The translations under genes were made by a program, and so were the position numbers. Shown here one piece after another: positions 16,949 to 29,247 of a DNA stretch of 64,000 nt. The notes under the pieces were generated by a model. The model had not been told where the DNA came from, searched no databases, and worked only from the letters and a program-made list of their open reading frames with translations. Source of the DNA: Pigmentiphaga kullae (GTDB lineage: Bacteria; Pseudomonadota; Gammaproteobacteria; Burkholderiales; Burkholderiaceae_B); contig NZ_SGXC01000003.1 of assembly GCF_004216695.1 (NCBI RefSeq), positions 186,001-250,000 of the forward strand, written 5' to 3'. How positions within the stretch are numbered: position 1 is the first letter of the stretch; the number at the start of each line of letters is the position of its first letter.

Positions 16949-18046
16949 TCAGGCTTCCTGCCAGACCTCGGACGGAATCAGCACGCTGCCCTCGAACAGC
17001 CGCCGGGCCGTGCGGATCACCGCCGCGCGCCGGATGGTGGGCGTGGCGCTGACCAGGTCCACGTCGAGGTCGATGGATATCGTGCCCGACGGATGCTCGA
17101 TGCGCACCACGCCCTGCGGCGGTACGCTGTCCAGGCCGGAGAGCCGGGACGCGATGGTGCCGGGAACGGCGCAGGCCGAGGCCACGCACAAGGCGCCGGT
17201 GACGGCGTGCGCGCGGTGGCAGGAGTAGGGCACGAAGTAGCGCGACGAGATCGTGCCGCCGTGCTGCGGTTCGGCCAGCAGCCCGATCTTGGGCACGACC
17301 GATGCGCTGACGTCGCCCAGCCCCATCAATTCGCCCGCCTTGCGCCGGATGGCTTCCATCCTGGCGATCAGCGCGGTGTCGGCATCGAGCTCCTCGGCGC
17401 TTTCATGGCCGGTCTTGCCCAGTTGGGTGGCCGAGAACAGCACCATGGGCATGGCGACGTCCACGCAGCTGACTTCGATGCCGTCGATCACGTCCAGCGG
17501 CCGGCCGGTGGGCAGCAGCTTGCCGGTGATGGAGCCGATGGCGCTGCGGAAATTCAGCTTGACGGGCGCGGCGGTGCCGGGCACGCCGTCGATCGCCGCA
17601 TCGCCCGAGTAGGTCACCGAGCCGCCCGGTGTCTGCACGATGGCGTGGACTTCGGCCTGCGTGTTGACATTGAAGATGCGCACGGTCGTCTCGTCGCCCT
17701 GCGCCGGCACCAGTCCGGCGTCGATGGCGTAGGGGCCGACCGCGCCCAGGATGTTGCCGCAGTTCGGGCGCGTGTCGACCAGGCGCTCGTTCACCAGGAC
17801 CTGGGCGAACAGATAATCGACGTCTATGCCCGGGCGCTGCGAGGGGCTGATGATGGCGACCTTGCTGGTGAAGGGCGTGGCGCCGCCGATGCCGTCCACC
17901 TGGTAGGAATGGGGCGATCCCATGGCGGCCAGCAGCACTTCGTCGCGCCGCGCCGGATCGGACGGAAGGTCCGAGGCAAGAAAGAAAGGTCCGCGCGAGG
18001 TTCCGCCCCGCATCATGACGCACGGTATCTTCGTCTGCATGATCAT
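16949..18046 (-). CDS. PrpF-family isomerase (first copy)
   Basis: This 365-residue PrpF-fold protein (diaminopimelate-epimerase-like double domain) is related to 2-methylaconitate isomerase and 4-oxalomesaconate tautomerase. The N-terminal MMRGGTSRG and the NCGNILGAVGPY segment with the active-site Cys are both present, and a second conserved stretch is IEVSCVDVAMP. The start at 18046 overlaps the stop of the upstream Bug gene as ATGA, with GGTGGA before it, so translation is coupled. The transported substrate is therefore probably the one isomerised, plausibly an unsaturated tricarboxylate such as an aconitate derivative; this is inference. A clear terminator follows. Confidence 0.93.
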   Translation of the reverse strand: MIMQTKIPCVMMRGGTSRGPFFLASDLPSDPARRDEVLLAAMGSPHSYQVDGIGGATPFTSKVAIISPSQRPGIDVDYLFAQVLVNERLVDTRPNCGNILGAVGPYAIDAGLVPAQGDETTVRIFNVNTQAEVHAIVQTPGGSVTYSGDAAIDGVPGTAAPVKLNFRSAIGSITGKLLPTGRPLDVIDGIEVSCVDVAMPMVLFSATQLGKTGHESAEELDADTALIARMEAIRRKAGELMGLGDVSASVVPKIGLLAEPQHGGTISSRYFVPYSCHRAHAVTGALCVASACAVPGTIASRLSGLDSVPPQGVVRIEHPSGTISIDLDVDLVSATPTIRRAAVIRTARRLFEGSVLIPSEVWQEA

Positions 18047-19053
18047 TCCACCTGGATCTTGGCGTCGGTCACGACACGCTTCCATACCGCCAGTTCTTTC
18101 TGGATCTGCGCCATCAACTGTTCGGGCTTGCCGATGGCGGGCTCCTCGCCGTTGGCCTTGAGTTGTTCCACGGTTTCCGGCAGCGCCAGCGCGACGTTCA
18201 TTTCCTTGTTCAGCCGCTGCTGGATGTCGGCGGGCAGGCCCTTGGGGGCGATCAGCCCATACCAGACGATCACTTCATAGCCCGGCACGCCGGCCTCGGC
18301 CACCGTGGGGATGGAAGGCTCGGCCTGGATGCGCTTGGGCAGCGTCTCGGCCACGACCTTCAGCCGGCCGCTCTTCATGTAGGGAAAGGCCGCGCCGGCG
18401 GTGCTGAAGAAGAGGTCGGTCTGGCCCGCCACGGTGTCGGTCAGGGCCGGGGCCGTGCCGCGGTAGGGCACGTGGGTCATCTCGATCCCGGCGGTACGCT
18501 GGAACAGTTCCGTGGCCAGGTGGGAGATGCCGCCCTGGCCGGACGAGGCGTAGGTCAGGCCGCCTTTCCTGGTCTTGGCGAGCTGGATCAGGTCGGCCAG
18601 ACTGTTGACCGGCAGGGTGGTCGGCACCGCGATCAGGAGCGGGCCGCGCGCGATCATGCCGATGGGTGTGATGTCCTTGATCGGGTCGAACTTGATCGGA
18701 TAGAGGCTGGGATTGACCGAGTAGCTGTTGGAGATCAGCGTGAGCGTGTAGCCGTCGGGATCGGCCTTCACGCCGGCTTCCACGCCCAGCTTGCCGCCGG
18801 CGCCGGCGCGGTTTTCGATCACCACCGGCTGGCCCAGCGCGTCGCCCAGGCGTCGGCCCAGGGTGCGGGCGATGGCGTCGTTGCCGCCGCCGGGAGCGAA
18901 GGGCACGATCAGCTTGATGGGCTTGGTCGGATAGTCGGCCGCCTGCGCGGCCTGCCACGAGGTGGCGGCCAGCGTGCCCAGCAGCGCGGACAGCAGGGTG
19001 CGGCGGAAGGCCTTGAACGCCGAGCCGGCGCGAGGCGTGAGAGGGTACGTCAT
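18043..19053 (-). CDS. Bug-family periplasmic solute-binding protein (TctC), sigma-54 controlled
   Basis: This 336-residue tripartite tricarboxylate transporter receptor-type protein has a signal peptide ending AAQAADYP. The family start KLIVPFAPGGGNDAIAR follows, then VIENRAGAGGKLG and the ligand-pocket segment THVPYRGTAPAL. Bug proteins bind carboxylates in the periplasm and hand them to TctA/TctB permeases or act as sensors. No permease gene is nearby. A -24/-12 promoter with perfect consensus lies 48-63 bp upstream, and the downstream PrpF gene overlaps by 4 bp. Control by the PrpR-like activator 1.5 kb upstream is likely. Confidence 0.95.
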   Translation of the reverse strand: MTYPLTPRAGSAFKAFRRTLLSALLGTLAATSWQAAQAADYPTKPIKLIVPFAPGGGNDAIARTLGRRLGDALGQPVVIENRAGAGGKLGVEAGVKADPDGYTLTLISNSYSVNPSLYPIKFDPIKDITPIGMIARGPLLIAVPTTLPVNSLADLIQLAKTRKGGLTYASSGQGGISHLATELFQRTAGIEMTHVPYRGTAPALTDTVAGQTDLFFSTAGAAFPYMKSGRLKVVAETLPKRIQAEPSIPTVAEAGVPGYEVIVWYGLIAPKGLPADIQQRLNKEMNVALALPETVEQLKANGEEPAIGKPEQLMAQIQKELAVWKRVVTDAKIQVE

Positions 19054-19100
19054 ACAGGGTCTCCGGGGACGGTTCTTGTGTCTGGATGGAAGAACTGCCG

Positions 19101-19116
19101 AGCAAGGCGCGTGCCA
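19101..19116 (-). promoter_or_regulatory. Sigma-54 (-24/-12) promoter of the Bug/PrpF operon
   Basis: On the minus strand the bases read TGGCACGCGCCTTGCT, which matches the RpoN consensus TGGCACG-N4-TTGCW at every defined position, with the required GG-N10-GC spacing. Transcription would start near 19090, about 37 bases before the Bug ATG. Confidence 0.85.
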
Positions 19117-19217
19117 TGGGTGGCAACTGAGAGGGTGTCCAGAGCTAAGTTTTTGATTCGTATGGAATTTCTGGGCGCGGCCAGGGGGCGTGGCAACGCG
19201 CCTCGGAAGATTCGTTG

Positions 19218-19231
19218 TTTCAATAATGTAA
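19218..19231. promoter_or_regulatory. Candidate upstream activator site for the Bug/PrpF operon
   Basis: TTTCAATAATGTAA shares its first eight bases (TTTCAATA) with the perfect palindrome TTTCAATATTGAAA at 20519. It lies about 115 bp upstream of the -24/-12 element, a normal distance for an enhancer bound by an NtrC-type activator. It also lies within the AT-rich gap just after the second PrpF gene. Confidence 0.5.
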
Positions 19232-19251
19232 CGCGTTTCGCCGAAGCGCCG

Positions 19252-20397
19252 TCACCGCCCGGTGGGCGCGTAGACCTCGCCCCGCATCAGCCGGCGCGCG
19301 GTGCGCGTGACGGTCGTGCTGTCGACGCGCGGCTGCTGTCCGCCGCTGACGGCGGCGCCCACGGGCAGAGAACCCGAGGCGTGGCCGATGACGATGTCGC
19401 CGCCGTCCGCGGGGGCGCGGCCCAGTTCGGCGCCCAGGGTGCCGGGCAGGCGCACGCAGGCGGCCAGGCACATCGCGCCCGTCAGCGGCGTTGCCCGGTG
19501 CGGCTGGCCGGCCGAGAACATGCGGGCGGTGATGTCCACGTCCCGGGCTCGAAGCGAAGCGCCCGAAGGCAGAACCACGTCGGCGGGCGGCGACAGCAGG
19601 CAGACCAGCGGCAGGTTGCGCAGGCGCGTGCGCGCCTCGTCCTCGGTGGCGAGCCCCATCAGGACGGCGGCGGCCACGCGCAGTTCCTCGCATTGCCGGA
19701 CCAGATCCGGCCGCGCATCGATCTGCGCCGCCGATTCGATGCCGGCCAGGCCGAAGTCGGCGGCGCGCGCGAAGACCGTCGGGTTCGAGACGTCGATGCA
19801 CGAGACCTCGATCGTCCCCACGCCGGGGATCGTCACGGTGTCGCGCGCGGCGCCGGTGGGGAACAGCTTGCCGGTCGTGGCGCCGCCCGGGTCCAGGAAG
19901 GACAGCCGGATGGGCGAGCCGGTGCCCGCCACGCCGGGCAGCACGAAATCGCCGGCGACCGCGGCGCGGCCGTCGCTGAGCGCGAAGTCGGCCACGATGA
20001 TCTTGCCGGTGTTGGTGTTGTGGATGCGGACCGAGGCGCGGTCGCCCGATGTCCGCACCAGCCCCTCGTCCACGGCGTAGGGGCCGATGGCCGACGAGAT
20101 GTTGCCGCAGTTGCCCCGGTACTGGACCAGCGGCGCGTCGATCGCGACCTGCCCGAAGGTGTAGTCCACGTCGGCGTCGCCGCGCGTGGGCGCGCCCACC
20201 ACGGCGATCTTCGACAGCGACGAGATGCCGCCGCCCAGGCCGTCCAGTTGCCGCTTGCCGGGATCCGGGCTGCCCAGCGTGGCCAGGAAGACCTGGTCGC
20301 GCGCATCGCGGTCGGCGGGCAGGTCGCGGTCGTGGAAGACCAGGGCGCGGCTGGTGCCGCCGCGCATATAGACGGCTGGATAGGCTGCTTGGGGCAT
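19252..20397 (-). CDS. PrpF-family isomerase (second copy), sigma-54 controlled
   Basis: This second PrpF-fold protein has 381 residues and starts MPQAAYPAVYMRGGTSRA. The NCGNISSAIGPY segment with the active-site Cys and IEVSCIDVSNP are conserved. It is clearly diverged from the copy at 16949, so the two probably act on different isomers or in sequence rather than being a recent duplication. It is divergent from the PrpR-like activator gene, and its own -24/-12 promoter lies 30-45 bp upstream. GGAG precedes the ATG. It probably isomerises an unsaturated di- or tricarboxylate. Confidence 0.93.
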   Translation of the reverse strand: MPQAAYPAVYMRGGTSRALVFHDRDLPADRDARDQVFLATLGSPDPGKRQLDGLGGGISSLSKIAVVGAPTRGDADVDYTFGQVAIDAPLVQYRGNCGNISSAIGPYAVDEGLVRTSGDRASVRIHNTNTGKIIVADFALSDGRAAVAGDFVLPGVAGTGSPIRLSFLDPGGATTGKLFPTGAARDTVTIPGVGTIEVSCIDVSNPTVFARAADFGLAGIESAAQIDARPDLVRQCEELRVAAAVLMGLATEDEARTRLRNLPLVCLLSPPADVVLPSGASLRARDVDITARMFSAGQPHRATPLTGAMCLAACVRLPGTLGAELGRAPADGGDIVIGHASGSLPVGAAVSGGQQPRVDSTTVTRTARRLMRGEVYAPTGR

Positions 20398-20426
20398 CGA
20401 AGTCTCCGAATGGGATGGCTGCCCGT

Positions 20427-20442
20427 TGCAAGGCCCATGCCA
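20427..20442 (-). promoter_or_regulatory. Sigma-54 (-24/-12) promoter of the second PrpF gene
   Basis: The minus strand reads TGGCATGGGCCTTGCA: one mismatch to TGGCACG-N4-TTGCW, with exact GG-N10-GC spacing. The predicted start near 20416 leaves a leader of about 19 bases containing the GGAG ribosome site. Confidence 0.8.
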
Positions 20443-20518
20443 GCGGGGTCGCGCGATGCCGGAGCCCGGCGCGGCGCGGCAACGGCGGTGGCGTGTTTCA
20501 CCGATTCTTGTGTTTGTG

Positions 20519-20532
20519 TTTCAATATTGAAA
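20519..20532. promoter_or_regulatory. Perfect palindrome TTTCAATATTGAAA, candidate PrpR-like activator site
   Basis: This 14-bp perfect palindrome lies about 90 bp upstream of the -24/-12 element of the PrpF gene and 10 bp before the activator's own ATG, touching its AAGGAG ribosome site. A further TGTTTCA half site lies at 20494-20500. Binding here could activate the PrpF gene and repress the activator's own gene. Confidence 0.6.
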
Positions 20533-20542
20533 AGGAGTGAAC

Positions 20543-22489
20543 ATGAGCATCGCCGCATCCGATGACCGCCGGCCCCTGATCTGGGCCATCAGCGCGCACC
20601 GGCTGACCGAGGTCTTTCGCACCGTCAGCCCCGAACTCGCGGACCGGGCCGCCATCGAGATCATCGACAAGGGTTTCGACGACGCGATCGCCGAGATCGC
20701 CCGACGCAGCGAAAAGCGGGCCTGCGACGTCATCGTCGCGGCGGGCGCCCACGGCGCCTACCTGCGCCAGAACGTCAGCATTCCCGTGGCCTTCGTCAAG
20801 GTGGGCGGCTTCGATCTGATGGCCGCGATCTGCAAGGCGCGGCAGTTCTCCGACCGCATCGCCATGGTCATGCACCGGCGCGTGCCGCCGGCGTTGAACC
20901 GTTTCGCGACGCTGTTCTCCTTGCCCATGCAGATCCGCGCCTACCAGACCGCCGAGGATGCCCGGCACTGCATCCAGGAACTGGCGGCGGCCGGCGTCGA
21001 GGTGGTGGTCGGCCCCGGCCTGATCGCCAACCTGGCCGATGAAGCCGGCTTGACGGGCATCCTGGTCTATTCGCTGGATTCCGTGCGCGCCGCCTTCGAC
21101 GACGCGATCGAGATCGCCGCCGCGCAGAAGGCCGAGAAGTCGCGCCGCACGCAGCTCGATTCGGTGCTCTATCACCTGAACGACGGCGTCATCGCCGTGG
21201 ACATGGCCGGCCGCATCGTCGCCGCCAATCCCTCGGTAGACAAGCTGACCGGCCGCCGCGTGCGCGAGGCCCTGGGCCAGCCGCTGCGCCAGGTGCTGCC
21301 GGACCTGGAGCCGGGGCAGGTCATGACCCGCGGGGCGAGCGAGATCGGCACCGTGCAGGAGATGGGCGGCAAGTCGGTCGTCGTCGATCGCGTGCCGCTG
21401 CTGGACGAGGGCATGCAGACCGGCGCCATCTTCACGCTGCACGGGTCCAGCGAACTGGAGCGTGCCGTCAGCAAGCTGCGGGCGCATACGCACCGGCGCT
21501 CGCGCGTGGCCCGCTACCGGCTGGACGATGTGGTGGCCGAGTCCGCCGCCATGCGCCAGGTGATCGCGCAGTGCCGGGTCTTCGCCGAGCACAGCGACGC
21601 GGCCGTGCTGATCCACGGCGAAAGCGGCACGGGCAAGGAACTGCTGGCCCAGGGCCTGCACAACGCCAGCCGGCGGCGCCGGCATCCCTTCATCGCCATC
21701 AACTGCGGCGCCTTCACCGAGACCCTGCTGGAAAGCGAGCTGTTCGGCTATGACGAGGGCGCCTTCACGGGCGCGCGCCGGCAGGGCAAGCCCGGCCTGT
21801 TCGAGTCCGCCAACGAGGGCACGCTGTTCCTGGACGAGATCGGCGAAATGCCGCTGCCGCTACAGACGCGGCTGTTGCGCGCCTTGCAGGAGAAGGAGAT
21901 CACGCGGGTGGGCAGCGTCGACACCATCCCGGTCGACGTGCGCATCGTGGCCGCCACCCATCGCGACCTGCTGGCCATGGTCAGGGCGGGCGTTTTCCGC
22001 GAGGATCTTTACTACCGCCTGAACATCCTGCAGGTGGTGGTGCCGCCGCTGCGCGACCGGCCCGAGGACATCGAGGCGCTGGCCCGGCTGCTGCTGCCGG
22101 CGGCGCTGGGGCGCGCGGGATTGCAGGAAGCCGTGGCGCCCATGCTGGAGGCGGCGTTGCCCGTGCTGAAGGAAGGCGCATGGCGGGGCAACGTCAGGGA
22201 ACTGGAGAACGTGTCGGAACGCCTGACCATGGCCTGCCTGACCGAGGGGCGGCCGCTGTCGCGCCGCGAGGTGCGGGCCATGCTGGCCGATGCGCCGGCC
22301 CGGCGACAGGCGCCCGCGGCGCGCAGCCTGTCGGCGGTGCGTGCCAGCCAGGAGGCCGCCCACGCCCGCGCCGTGCTGGCCGAATGCGCGGGCAATCACC
22401 AGGAGGCCGCGCGGCGGCTGGGCGTCAGCCGCACCACGCTGTGGCGCAAGATCAAGGCGGCGCAAGCCCGGGAGCAGGCTAGCGGTTGA
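20543..22489 (+). CDS. PrpR-like sigma-54-dependent transcriptional activator
   Basis: This 648-residue NtrC-family activator has a PrpR_N sensor domain (about residues 10-190), a PAS domain (about 205-305) and an AAA+ domain. The AAA+ domain carries Walker A GESGTGKE (359-366), the sigma-54 contact loop GAFTGA (406-411) and Walker B LFLDE (428-432). A Fis-type helix-turn-helix closes the protein (EAARRLGVSRTTLWRK). The start at 20543 is set by AAGGAG at 20532-20537. In propionate metabolism PrpR senses 2-methylcitrate; here its neighbours are PrpF-like isomerases and a Bug protein, so a related tricarboxylate is a likely inducer. It should drive both -24/-12 promoters at 19101 and 20427. Confidence 0.95.
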   Translation: MSIAASDDRRPLIWAISAHRLTEVFRTVSPELADRAAIEIIDKGFDDAIAEIARRSEKRACDVIVAAGAHGAYLRQNVSIPVAFVKVGGFDLMAAICKARQFSDRIAMVMHRRVPPALNRFATLFSLPMQIRAYQTAEDARHCIQELAAAGVEVVVGPGLIANLADEAGLTGILVYSLDSVRAAFDDAIEIAAAQKAEKSRRTQLDSVLYHLNDGVIAVDMAGRIVAANPSVDKLTGRRVREALGQPLRQVLPDLEPGQVMTRGASEIGTVQEMGGKSVVVDRVPLLDEGMQTGAIFTLHGSSELERAVSKLRAHTHRRSRVARYRLDDVVAESAAMRQVIAQCRVFAEHSDAAVLIHGESGTGKELLAQGLHNASRRRRHPFIAINCGAFTETLLESELFGYDEGAFTGARRQGKPGLFESANEGTLFLDEIGEMPLPLQTRLLRALQEKEITRVGSVDTIPVDVRIVAATHRDLLAMVRAGVFREDLYYRLNILQVVVPPLRDRPEDIEALARLLLPAALGRAGLQEAVAPMLEAALPVLKEGAWRGNVRELENVSERLTMACLTEGRPLSRREVRAMLADAPARRQAPAARSLSAVRASQEAAHARAVLAECAGNHQEAARRLGVSRTTLWRKIKAAQAREQASG

Positions 22490-27387: not shown

Positions 27388-28158
27388 TCAGCTCGCGCGC
27401 AGCACGGCCGAGATGCTGGCCGCGCTGCGCAGCGCGTGCTGGGCCAGCGGGGCTTCCGGATCCAGTTCTTCTTCCAGCGCCAGTCCCGCCACGATCAGCG
27501 CCGCCACTGCTTCGCCGCCACGGCCGAACACCGGGCAGGCGAGCGTTCCCACGCCCGGCCGCATTTCGCTCAGCCCGAACGACAGGCCCCGGGCCGCGCG
27601 TATCGCTTCCAGCCGGTCCGAAGCGGCTGCGTAGCGTTCCTCGCCCACGTGCGCGATGCCCCGTTCGCGCGGCCACGCGGCCAGGATGGCGCGCCCGCTC
27701 ACGCTGGCGTCCAGCGGAAAGTGGGTGCCGATGTCGGTGATGATGTTGAGCGGCACCGATGGGGCCCAGATGCGTTCGATGATGACCACCTCGTCCAGCG
27801 CCGGCACGGAGATCGAGACGATCGCCCGGCGCCTGCCCACGCCTTTCTCCTGCAACTCGATCGCGTGCGGCAGGGCGGCCCGCCGTATGCCCAGCCGGTC
27901 GTGCTGGGCCGTTCCCAGAACCAGGCACTTGGGGCCCAGCGCATAGATGCCCTCTCGCGCCTGCACCATGCCCCAGAAGGCCAGGGTACGCAGCACGCGA
28001 TGGACCGTGGTGCGGTCCAGTTCCGTGGCCTGGGCCAGTTCGAGCGCCGAGGCGCCCCGCGGCATCCGCATCAGCACATCGAGCAGGAACATGGCCCGGT
28101 CGATGACCTGGACCCGATTGCCTGGCGGCGCTGCGGAAGTGGAAGGCTGGCGGGGCAT
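27388..28158 (-). CDS. IclR family transcriptional regulator
   Basis: This 256-residue regulator has an N-terminal winged helix (residues 16-75; ALELAQATELDRTTVHRVL) and an IclR effector domain (from about 90; PLDASVSGRAILAAW). It is divergent from a Bug gene across 117 bp. That gap contains a consensus sigma-70 promoter for the Bug gene and a 17-bp palindrome just downstream of it. The same palindrome recurs at 31804 before the alcohol dehydrogenase and crotonase genes, so this protein is the best candidate repressor of the whole 27.4-32.7 kb module. The effector is probably the pathway substrate or its CoA ester. Confidence 0.93.
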   Translation of the reverse strand: MPRQPSTSAAPPGNRVQVIDRAMFLLDVLMRMPRGASALELAQATELDRTTVHRVLRTLAFWGMVQAREGIYALGPKCLVLGTAQHDRLGIRRAALPHAIELQEKGVGRRRAIVSISVPALDEVVIIERIWAPSVPLNIITDIGTHFPLDASVSGRAILAAWPRERGIAHVGEERYAAASDRLEAIRAARGLSFGLSEMRPGVGTLACPVFGRGGEAVAALIVAGLALEEELDPEAPLAQHALRSAASISAVLRAS

Positions 28159-28178
28159 GGATACGGTCGAGGGAATCG

Positions 28179-28207
28179 TTGACGTCGCGACATGGTATCG
28201 CTAATCT
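28179..28207 (+). promoter_or_regulatory. Sigma-70 promoter of the Bug gene at 28276
   Basis: TTGACG at 28179-28184 and TAATCT at 28202-28207 are separated by exactly 17 bp. Candidate operator sequences (GTGCGTATTA at 28212 and the palindrome at 28231) lie immediately downstream, in the region a repressor would block. Confidence 0.65.
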
Positions 28208-28230
28208 CGGAGTGCGTATTACAAGCTTAA

Positions 28231-28247
28231 TGTGCGTAATATGCACA
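28231..28247. promoter_or_regulatory. 17-bp palindromic operator, copy 1
   Basis: TGTGCGTAATATGCACA differs by one base from the copy at 31804. A related half, GTGCGTATTA, stands 20 bp upstream at 28212, two helical turns away. It lies between the divergent IclR and Bug genes and is probably the IclR-type binding site. Confidence 0.7.
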
Positions 28248-28275
28248 TAACCAATGATCATGAGAGGTTGTCGCC

Positions 28276-29247
28276 ATGTCGTCCCTGCGTGCTTCCTGGT
28301 TTGCGTCGTTCCTTGCGCTGGCTGCCGTTCCGGCCGTCGCGGCGGATGGCTACCCCTCCCGGCCGGTCAGGCTGATCGTGCCGTTCGCGGCCGGCGGCGC
28401 GGTGGACGCGGTCGCGCGTACCCTCGCGGCCCGCCTCGCCGAGCAGTTTTCGCAAAAGGTGGTGGTCGAGAACCGCGCCGGCGCTTCCGGCAACATCGGC
28501 GCCGACGCGGTGGTCAGGTCACCGGCCGACGGCTATACGCTGCTGTTCACGGCCTCGACCCTGGTGGTCAATCCGCTCATCATGAAGGACAAGCCACCCT
28601 TCGATCCGGCCCGGGACCTGACGCATCTCGCGCTGGTCGCCTCGGGGCCGCTCCTGTTCGTCACGCCCGCGTCCGCACCGGCCGGATCGGTCCAGGACTT
28701 CGTGGCCCAGGCCAAGGCCGCGCCCGATCGGTTCAGCTTCGCGGTGGGCGGTTTCGGCGCGGCAGGCCACCTGGACGTGGAGTCCTTCAAGCATCTGGCC
28801 GGACTGGCTGTGCCCACCGTGCTCTACAAGGGCACGGGACCGGCGCTGATCGACCTGATGGGCGGCCAGGTCAGCGGCATGATCGATCCGCTGCTGACAT
28901 CGCTGCCCCCGGTCAAGGCCGGCAAGCTCAAGGCGCTGGCCATTACCGGGAACAAGCGCAGCACGCTGGCTCCCGACGTGCCGACGTTCGCCGAGGCCGG
29001 CTACCCCGAGGTCAATTTCTCGACCTGGTATGGCTTGTGGGGACCGGCGGGACTGCCGGCCCCCGTGGTGGACAAGTTGGAAGCGGCGGTCAAGCGCTTC
29101 GTGGCCGAGCCCGACGCGCGTGCCTGGTTCGAGCGCCAGGGGCTCGAACCGTCGGGGGTGTCGGGTGCCCGTTTCCGGGCCTTCATCGACCAGGAAACGG
29201 CCAAGTCGCGCGAGATCGTGAAGCTGGCCCATATCGCCGAGCAGTGA
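28276..29247 (+). CDS. Bug-family periplasmic solute-binding protein (IclR module)
   Basis: This 323-residue TctC-type receptor has a signal peptide ending AVAADGYP, then VRLIVPFAAGGAVDAVAR, VVENRAGASGNIG and TVLYKGTGPALIDL. GAGAGG stands before the ATG. It should capture the carboxylate that the neighbouring CoA ligase activates. It differs from most other copies in the window in having ALA-rich pocket segments (GGFGAAGHLDVESFKHLAG) where others have SSGxGxxSHL, so its ligand probably differs. It is controlled by the promoter and operator directly upstream. The next gene converges on it. Confidence 0.94.
   Translation: MSSLRASWFASFLALAAVPAVAADGYPSRPVRLIVPFAAGGAVDAVARTLAARLAEQFSQKVVVENRAGASGNIGADAVVRSPADGYTLLFTASTLVVNPLIMKDKPPFDPARDLTHLALVASGPLLFVTPASAPAGSVQDFVAQAKAAPDRFSFAVGGFGAAGHLDVESFKHLAGLAVPTVLYKGTGPALIDLMGGQVSGMIDPLLTSLPPVKAGKLKALAITGNKRSTLAPDVPTFAEAGYPEVNFSTWYGLWGPAGLPAPVVDKLEAAVKRFVAEPDARAWFERQGLEPSGVSGARFRAFIDQETAKSREIVKLAHIAEQ

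Follow-up and report, generated by a model that had tools for sequence, protein, structure and literature searches.

The window analysed here, a 64,000-nucleotide stretch of the Pigmentiphaga kullae genome, contains a locus in which an activator gene lies divergent to genes for a receptor and two isomerases. On the plus strand, positions 20543..22489 encode a PrpR-family sigma-54 enhancer-binding activator of 648 aa with PrpR_N, PAS, AAA+ and HTH_8 regions, as assigned by Pfam and NCBIfam models, motifs and a tree. This protein carries Walker A and Walker B as well as the predicted GAFTGA motif. The minus strand encodes F1 (19252..20397), a PrpF-family isomerase of 381 aa (PF04303), a Bug/TctC-type periplasmic receptor of 336 aa (18043..19053; PF03401) and F2 (16949..18040), a second PrpF-family isomerase (PF04303). 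Lys63 and Cys97 of F1 and Lys60 and Cys94 of F2 fall on the Lys and Cys of Shewanella PrpF, placed by alignment for F1 and by the shared SK and NCGN motifs for F2; both residues are reported to matter in the Shewanella protein in the accessible part of PMC5690661. The neighbourhood of the activator gene shows no divergent prpB, prpC or prpD, and neither an aconitase nor TctAB is found beside the locus; the genome has 7 TctA matches, with 0 at the locus, where the TctC receptor is present.

The original prediction of a PrpR-like activator is borne out by the PrpR equivalog model TIGR02329, against which the protein scores 613.8 bits (cut-off 499.2). However, this model cannot separate paralogues, since all three PrpR_N proteins of the genome pass, the other two with 635.4 and 569.2 bits. 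One of these two is encoded divergently to prpB, prpC and prpD, all three of which exceed their curated cut-offs, and this complete prp operon (prpR, prpB, prpC, prpD) is on the window's contig at a distance of about 284 kb, in agreement with the suggestion that the window locus is separate from it. The third PrpR_N gene is transcribed divergently from a gene for a family III CoA transferase, which is followed by a TctC receptor gene. The genome also holds six PrpF proteins, one of which is encoded in a PrpF-TctC-TctB-TctA row (L014:2406-6700).

Promoters and operator sites

Both -24/-12 elements that had been predicted on the minus strand, with 0 and 1 mismatch, are found in the sequence. The promoter of Bug-F2, TGGCACGCGCCTTGCT (19101..19116), has 0 mismatches and a predicted start near 19090, and that of F1, TGGCATGGGCCTTGCA (20427..20442), has 1 mismatch and a predicted start near 20416; each carries GG-N10-GC with the -24/-12 consensus. 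The number of such matches is at chance level, with 2 found against 2.04 expected in the window for up to one mismatch, and the exact form, expected 0.12 times, was held by 12 of 100 shuffles. The match count was dropped as evidence (up to two mismatches gave 29 found against 31.3 expected), and the promoters are therefore credited through their position and conservation and not through the match alone. An element with at most one mismatch is present at every activator-adjoining F1 or Bug promoter read (11 loci), and the elements occupy the same place in relatives. The two-promoter layout stands in the window, but the Bug promoter is not universal: in P. humi (L050) neither an operator site nor a -24/-12 element was found before Bug, and at L131, from which F1 is absent, there is a single promoter. 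Sigma-54 itself is present in the genome, with two Sigma54_DBD (rpoN) matches at G000:C1:1839697-1840161 and G000:C3:927654-928124.

Local alignment of the F1 and Bug promoters gives a score of 88, which none of 500 shuffles reached (shuffled maximum 84). For the only promoter at L131, the score is 63.5 against the F1 promoter (4 of 500 as high) and 56.5 against the Bug promoter (60 of 500). As the alignment is carried by functional motifs, these scores are only compatible with one window promoter being copied from the other, in either direction.

Upstream of the F1 promoter lies a perfect 14-bp palindrome, TTTCAATATTGAAA (20519..20532), a candidate activator site by its sequence and conservation. 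A degenerate copy that differs at 2 positions, TTTCAATAATGTAA (19218..19231), is the candidate upstream site of the Bug promoter. Measured from the site centre, the GG of the respective -24 element lies 84 bp away at the F1 promoter and 109 bp away at the Bug promoter. An extra half-site, TGTTTCA (20494..20500, plus strand), can be read at a distance of 23 bp from the palindrome half that it matches. The proposed paired activator sites thus hold in that both copies exist, but the pairing is loose: the F1 promoter has the full palindrome and a lone half-site, the Bug promoter a single degenerate site. The palindrome abuts the ribosome-binding region of the activator gene itself, which makes autoregulation possible.

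Chance does not account for the palindrome: when up to three mismatches are allowed, the window has 2 places where 0.12 are expected, and none of 100 shuffles held 2. With up to two mismatches, it occurs at 2 places in the 6,220,214-base genome, both at the locus, against 1 for the backwards pattern. Its core form TTTCA-N4-TGAAA (TTTCANNNNTGAAA) is found exactly twice in the 6.22 Mb genome, at the locus and between prpR and prpB, where base composition would give about 0.3-0.7 places. Two places drawn at random would both land in promoter regions of the three PrpR_N genes with a probability near 6e-9, a rough value that uses estimated region lengths. The spacer letters are ATAT at the window locus and AATA at prp. 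Since this operator form is common to the locus and the complete canonical prpBCD operon, the locus is read as a paralogous regulon.

Conservation in Pigmentiphaga and relatives

Conservation was followed in 79 loci of relatives and 151 genomes of the family, two sources that partly overlap. Activators of the window type (type I) are present in 8 of 11 Pigmentiphaga genomes (G000, G043, G073, G116, G151, G152, G153 and G154), with up to 99% identity between the window activator and those of named Pigmentiphaga. The perfect TTTCAATATTGAAA lies upstream of the divergent operon in 6 of these 8 genomes, whereas G116 has one mismatch and the type-I locus of G151 has two mismatches in the 10 core letters of the operator. 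G151 also has a perfect copy of TTTCAATATTGAAA elsewhere, which lies within a long reading frame and at a distance from its type-I activator (L135:1501-1514).

Across the 11 Pigmentiphaga genomes, TTTCA-N4-TGAAA occurs at 35 places, against 3 for the backwards control, and 14 of them are in PrpR-type divergent promoters, 6 at the window-type locus and 8 at prp. A wider regulon in the genus was considered and rejected, as the other 21 places have no PrpR-type match; when all of these were scanned, no -24/-12 element with up to one mismatch was found within 350 bp. A Bug-type gene lies within the fetched stretch at two of the 21 places (L146/L186 and L183), and reading frames were inspected around nine of them (8 loci). 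At L176:2493-2551, a pair of TTTCA-N4-TGAAA palindromes, 45 bp apart, lies between what appear by eye to be a secreted-protein gene and a LysR-like gene; the surroundings show no PrpR-type match.

Activators with at least 65% identity to that of the window were assigned to clade I and those with 54-60% to clade II. In a tree of 43 proteins, clades I and II group together (100/100), as do clade II (100/100), clade I (92/85) and the CaiB-linked paralogues (100/100), with 9 rows in no group. The canonical prpR falls outside clades I and II, and the window activator does not group with it; of the 44 proteins listed, Escherichia coli PrpR, cut to a fragment, was dropped by the length filter.

Clade I activators are divergent to operons that contain Bug, with a variable cargo: F1-Bug-F2 in most Pigmentiphaga (for G154 and G151 the fetched stretch covered the activator and F1), Bug-F2 in G116 (L131), Bug-SBP_bac_11 in two Achromobacter and Bug-SBP_bac_11-PrpF in Candidimonas. 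Clade II comprises activators from Polaromonas, a Comamonadaceae MAG, Candidimonas, and G047 and G120, which belong to the genus containing the Achromobacter genomes. All five clade II loci (L055, L084 and L128-L130) encode Bug, a large subunit of the aconitase family with a small subunit of the LeuD/DmdB family, and a PrpB-like lyase (families determined on L055). A clear upstream site is seen in 6 Pigmentiphaga genomes and in clade II, whereas that of P. humi, Achromobacter and Candidimonas is degenerate, with at least 2 core mismatches. At L052, the sole match with up to two mismatches is 10 bp from the promoter and not credible, and half-sites are visible further up.

Solute-binding-type proteins of the SBP_bac_11 or SBP_bac_3 families recur beside Bug, some of them near PrpF (L052:4058-4807, L054:4068-4862, L211:2192-2920 and L191:8207-8947). 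By eye they have no evident signal peptide, and they may be enzymes rather than receptors. No solved relative was found for the Achromobacter SBP_bac_11 protein, which might conceivably be a counterpart of the aconitate isomerase of Pseudomonas WU-0701.

Operator gap across PrpR paralogues

The gap between the half-sites was compared by counting TTTCA-Nk-TGAAA, with up to one mismatch, within about 330 bp upstream of activator genes grouped by their neighbours and the tree. The 4-bp gap is present in 7 of 11 clade I loci (absent from the two Achromobacter, Candidimonas and P. humi), 7 of 7 in clade II and 29 of 33 canonical prp loci, against 0 of 7 CaiB-linked loci. Conversely, the gap of 0 bp is found in 5 of 7 CaiB-linked loci, 1 of 7 in clade II, and in none of the 11 clade I or 33 prp loci. 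With the backwards control, no combination of group and gap had more than 1. The corresponding Fisher values, 2e-5 and 3e-5, treat the rows as independent and are overstated, the rows being related. The published Salmonella PrpR site, CGTTTCATGAAACG in the accessible part of PMC4987338, has the same TTTCA/TGAAA half-sites with k=0, in contrast to the 4 bp of the window locus. The E. coli prpR-prpB region has an exact gap of 12 bp and gaps of 1, 7 and 11 bp with one mismatch, and none of 0 or 4.

Other gaps also recur: 14 bp in 7/11 and 11 bp in 4/11 clade I loci, 11 bp in 5/7 CaiB-linked loci (4 of them exact) and, at prp, 11 bp in 6/33 and 7, 13 and 16 bp in 5/33 each. They may represent stacked half-sites, or the gap may not be the code. 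When compared with other segments of the same loci, the site is enriched in clade II (2/2), in the proteobacterial and myxococcal group (16/26 against 0.13 expected) and in clade I (3/7 against 0.07 expected), with little enrichment in Firmicutes and other distant relatives (2/39 against 1.28 expected). A tentative reading, marked down slightly because of the recurring other gaps and which we consider doubtful, is that PrpR-type activators have spread over carboxylate pathways while keeping the half-site, with the gap (4 bp for betaproteobacterial prp and the Bug-linked clades I and II, against 0 bp for the CaiB-linked clade) acting as an insulation code between paralogues of one cell and the 11- and 14-bp gaps as stacked sites; the propionate and window-locus pathways of Pigmentiphaga would then be wired together. 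Such cross-talk is testable, as canonical PrpR and the window activator share the 4-bp form.

Proposed regulon and candidate substrates

The locus has a real, partly conserved regulatory layout, a known kind of system in a new branch and with a different cargo. It could operate as a small self-contained regulon under a PrpR-family paralogue, in which the PrpR_N sensor would hold the activator inactive until a small carboxylate binds. An activator oligomer would occupy TTTCA-N4-TGAAA, some 110 bp ahead of the F1 start, as well as the weaker site that precedes the Bug start by about 135 bp, and its GAFTGA AAA+ domain would, judging by family and layout, open sigma-54 RNA polymerase at both -24/-12 promoters. 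The Bug receptor would capture an unsaturated tricarboxylate (trans-aconitate, for example, or one of its methylated relatives) and serve a membrane pair whose genes lie elsewhere, and the PrpF-family isomerases would convert the captured acid into a form usable by aconitase. The gene families, the anatomy, conservation and rarity of the sites, and the clade are observed; we infer binding, sigma-54 dependence, ligand and substrate alike. Regulation as described is likely, and the activator probably switches on the receptor and the two isomerases, perhaps for aconitate-like acids; for the whole proposal, from the PrpR paralogue and its sigma-54 promoters to the tricarboxylate receptor and isomerases, the balance tips only slightly in favour.

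Salmonella and E. coli PrpR-prpBCDE share the PrpR_N, AAA+ and HTH_8 activator, the sigma-54 promoter and the divergent layout, and differ in the cargo, which at the window locus consists of isomerases and a receptor. The Tar system of Bacillus velezensis (TarA, TarB, TarR), which serves trans-aconitate assimilation, similarly places a PrpF-superfamily isomerase and an importer under a neighbouring activator; in the accessible part of its description, sigma is unmentioned (0 occurrences), the importer is TarB and no TctC is mentioned (PMC11495376). The locus would be a plausible sigma-54-controlled counterpart to this recently described system. No recognisable paper on a PrpR paralogue controlling Bug/PrpF genes was found in titles and abstract openings, a weak search that covered few subscription papers.

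With regard to the substrate, the family contains aconitate isomerase activity, shown for TarA/TbrA (PMC11495376) and for Shewanella PrpF (PMC5690661); at the window locus such activity is suggested by homology and gene neighbourhood. Among 300 genomes of the order searched with F1, 16 have a match at the strict limit. The best two orthologues besides that of the window (64-65%, one genus) are encoded in AcnA-F1-Bug operons; the aconitase of L211 passes the AcnA model (1180.6, cut-off 945) and fails AcnD (849.2, cut-off 1419.85), and that of L210 was assigned by Pfam. As these are the nearest F1 orthologues outside the genus, they favour aconitate-type substrates. In Shinella, a 48% relative and the genes tcuA, tcuB and acnA all fall within a neighbourhood of about 8 kb. 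On the other side, the C. taiwanensis relative, with acnA about 6 kb off, passes the canonical PrpF cut-off. At L212-L215 (F1 relatives of 50-53%; 4 read of 14 such genomes), no aconitase was found within reach with the AcnA query.

Among solved structures, F1 has its best relative in 3g7k, a 3-methylitaconate isomerase of nicotinate fermentation (287.8 bits; Shewanella PrpF reaches 235.9). F1 might hence interconvert methylitaconate and dimethylmaleate as in that pathway, with the PrpR-like clade serving such chemistry on methylated C6 dicarboxylates. The gene content of all five clade II loci fits this, as do the second-best solved relative of their lyase, 2,3-dimethylmalate lyase, and a Sagittula relative of F1 (57%) that adjoins a PrpB-like lyase. 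However, the lyase has methylisocitrate lyase as its best solved relative, the window locus lacks both hydratase and lyase, no nicotinate-fermentation genes are seen beside F1, and its nearest orthologues outside the genus adjoin AcnA, so that we regard this use as rather unlikely. Weighing the AcnA-F1-Bug operons and Shinella against 3g7k and the clade II loci, aconitate-type acids rank first and methylitaconate-type acids second, and the odds of an aconitate-type substrate are roughly even.

The TIGR02329 score of the activator and the operator form before prpB would also suit an accessory part in propionate catabolism, with F1 as methylaconitate isomerase and a regulator that answers 2-methylcitrate. 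Nevertheless, acnD and prpF are described as replacing prpD in the accessible part of PMC5690661, yet the prp operon of this genome has a true prpD (879.2 bits, cut-off 458). Unlike in the Shewanella AcnD-PrpF system, which shares the family and the Lys/Cys pair, there is no AcnD at the window locus, and F1 (289.2) and F2 (210.3) fail the PrpF cut-off of TIGR02334 (440.55), which the PrpF of the TctC-TctB-TctA row passes (550.7). The activator also lies outside the prp groups of the tree, and a propionate role appears improbable.

F1 is below both curated PrpF-type cut-offs, whereas F2 passes the 4-oxalomesaconate tautomerase model NF033377 (520.2, cut-off 440), and the locus could on that basis serve aromatic-acid breakdown. 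This is very unlikely: among 9 proteins scanned, 5 of them locus neighbours, no gallate or protocatechuate 4,5-cleavage enzyme was found, the annotated Agrobacterium example adjoins ligK, the same model accepts an F2-like protein on L015 of this genome (521.5), and the best solved relative of F2, YbhH, is named only a putative isomerase, with GalD as the other nearest structure. That canonical PrpR drives or co-drives the locus promoters, as might be suggested by the form TTTCA-N4-TGAAA, whose only two exact places in the genome are at the locus and at prp, is just as improbable, given the different spacer letters and an activator divergent to its operon with its own site, as at the resolved clade I, clade II, CaiB-linked and prp loci.

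PrpR-family genes are named propionate regulators, and PrpF-family genes methylaconitate isomerases or oxalomesaconate tautomerases; the locus presents these labels outside their defining context. It also offers concrete promoters, operators and paralogues for testing how enhancer-binding paralogues stay apart or fail to do so. Elsewhere in the window, an IclR-type regulator gene is divergent to a second Bug receptor gene (27388-29247).
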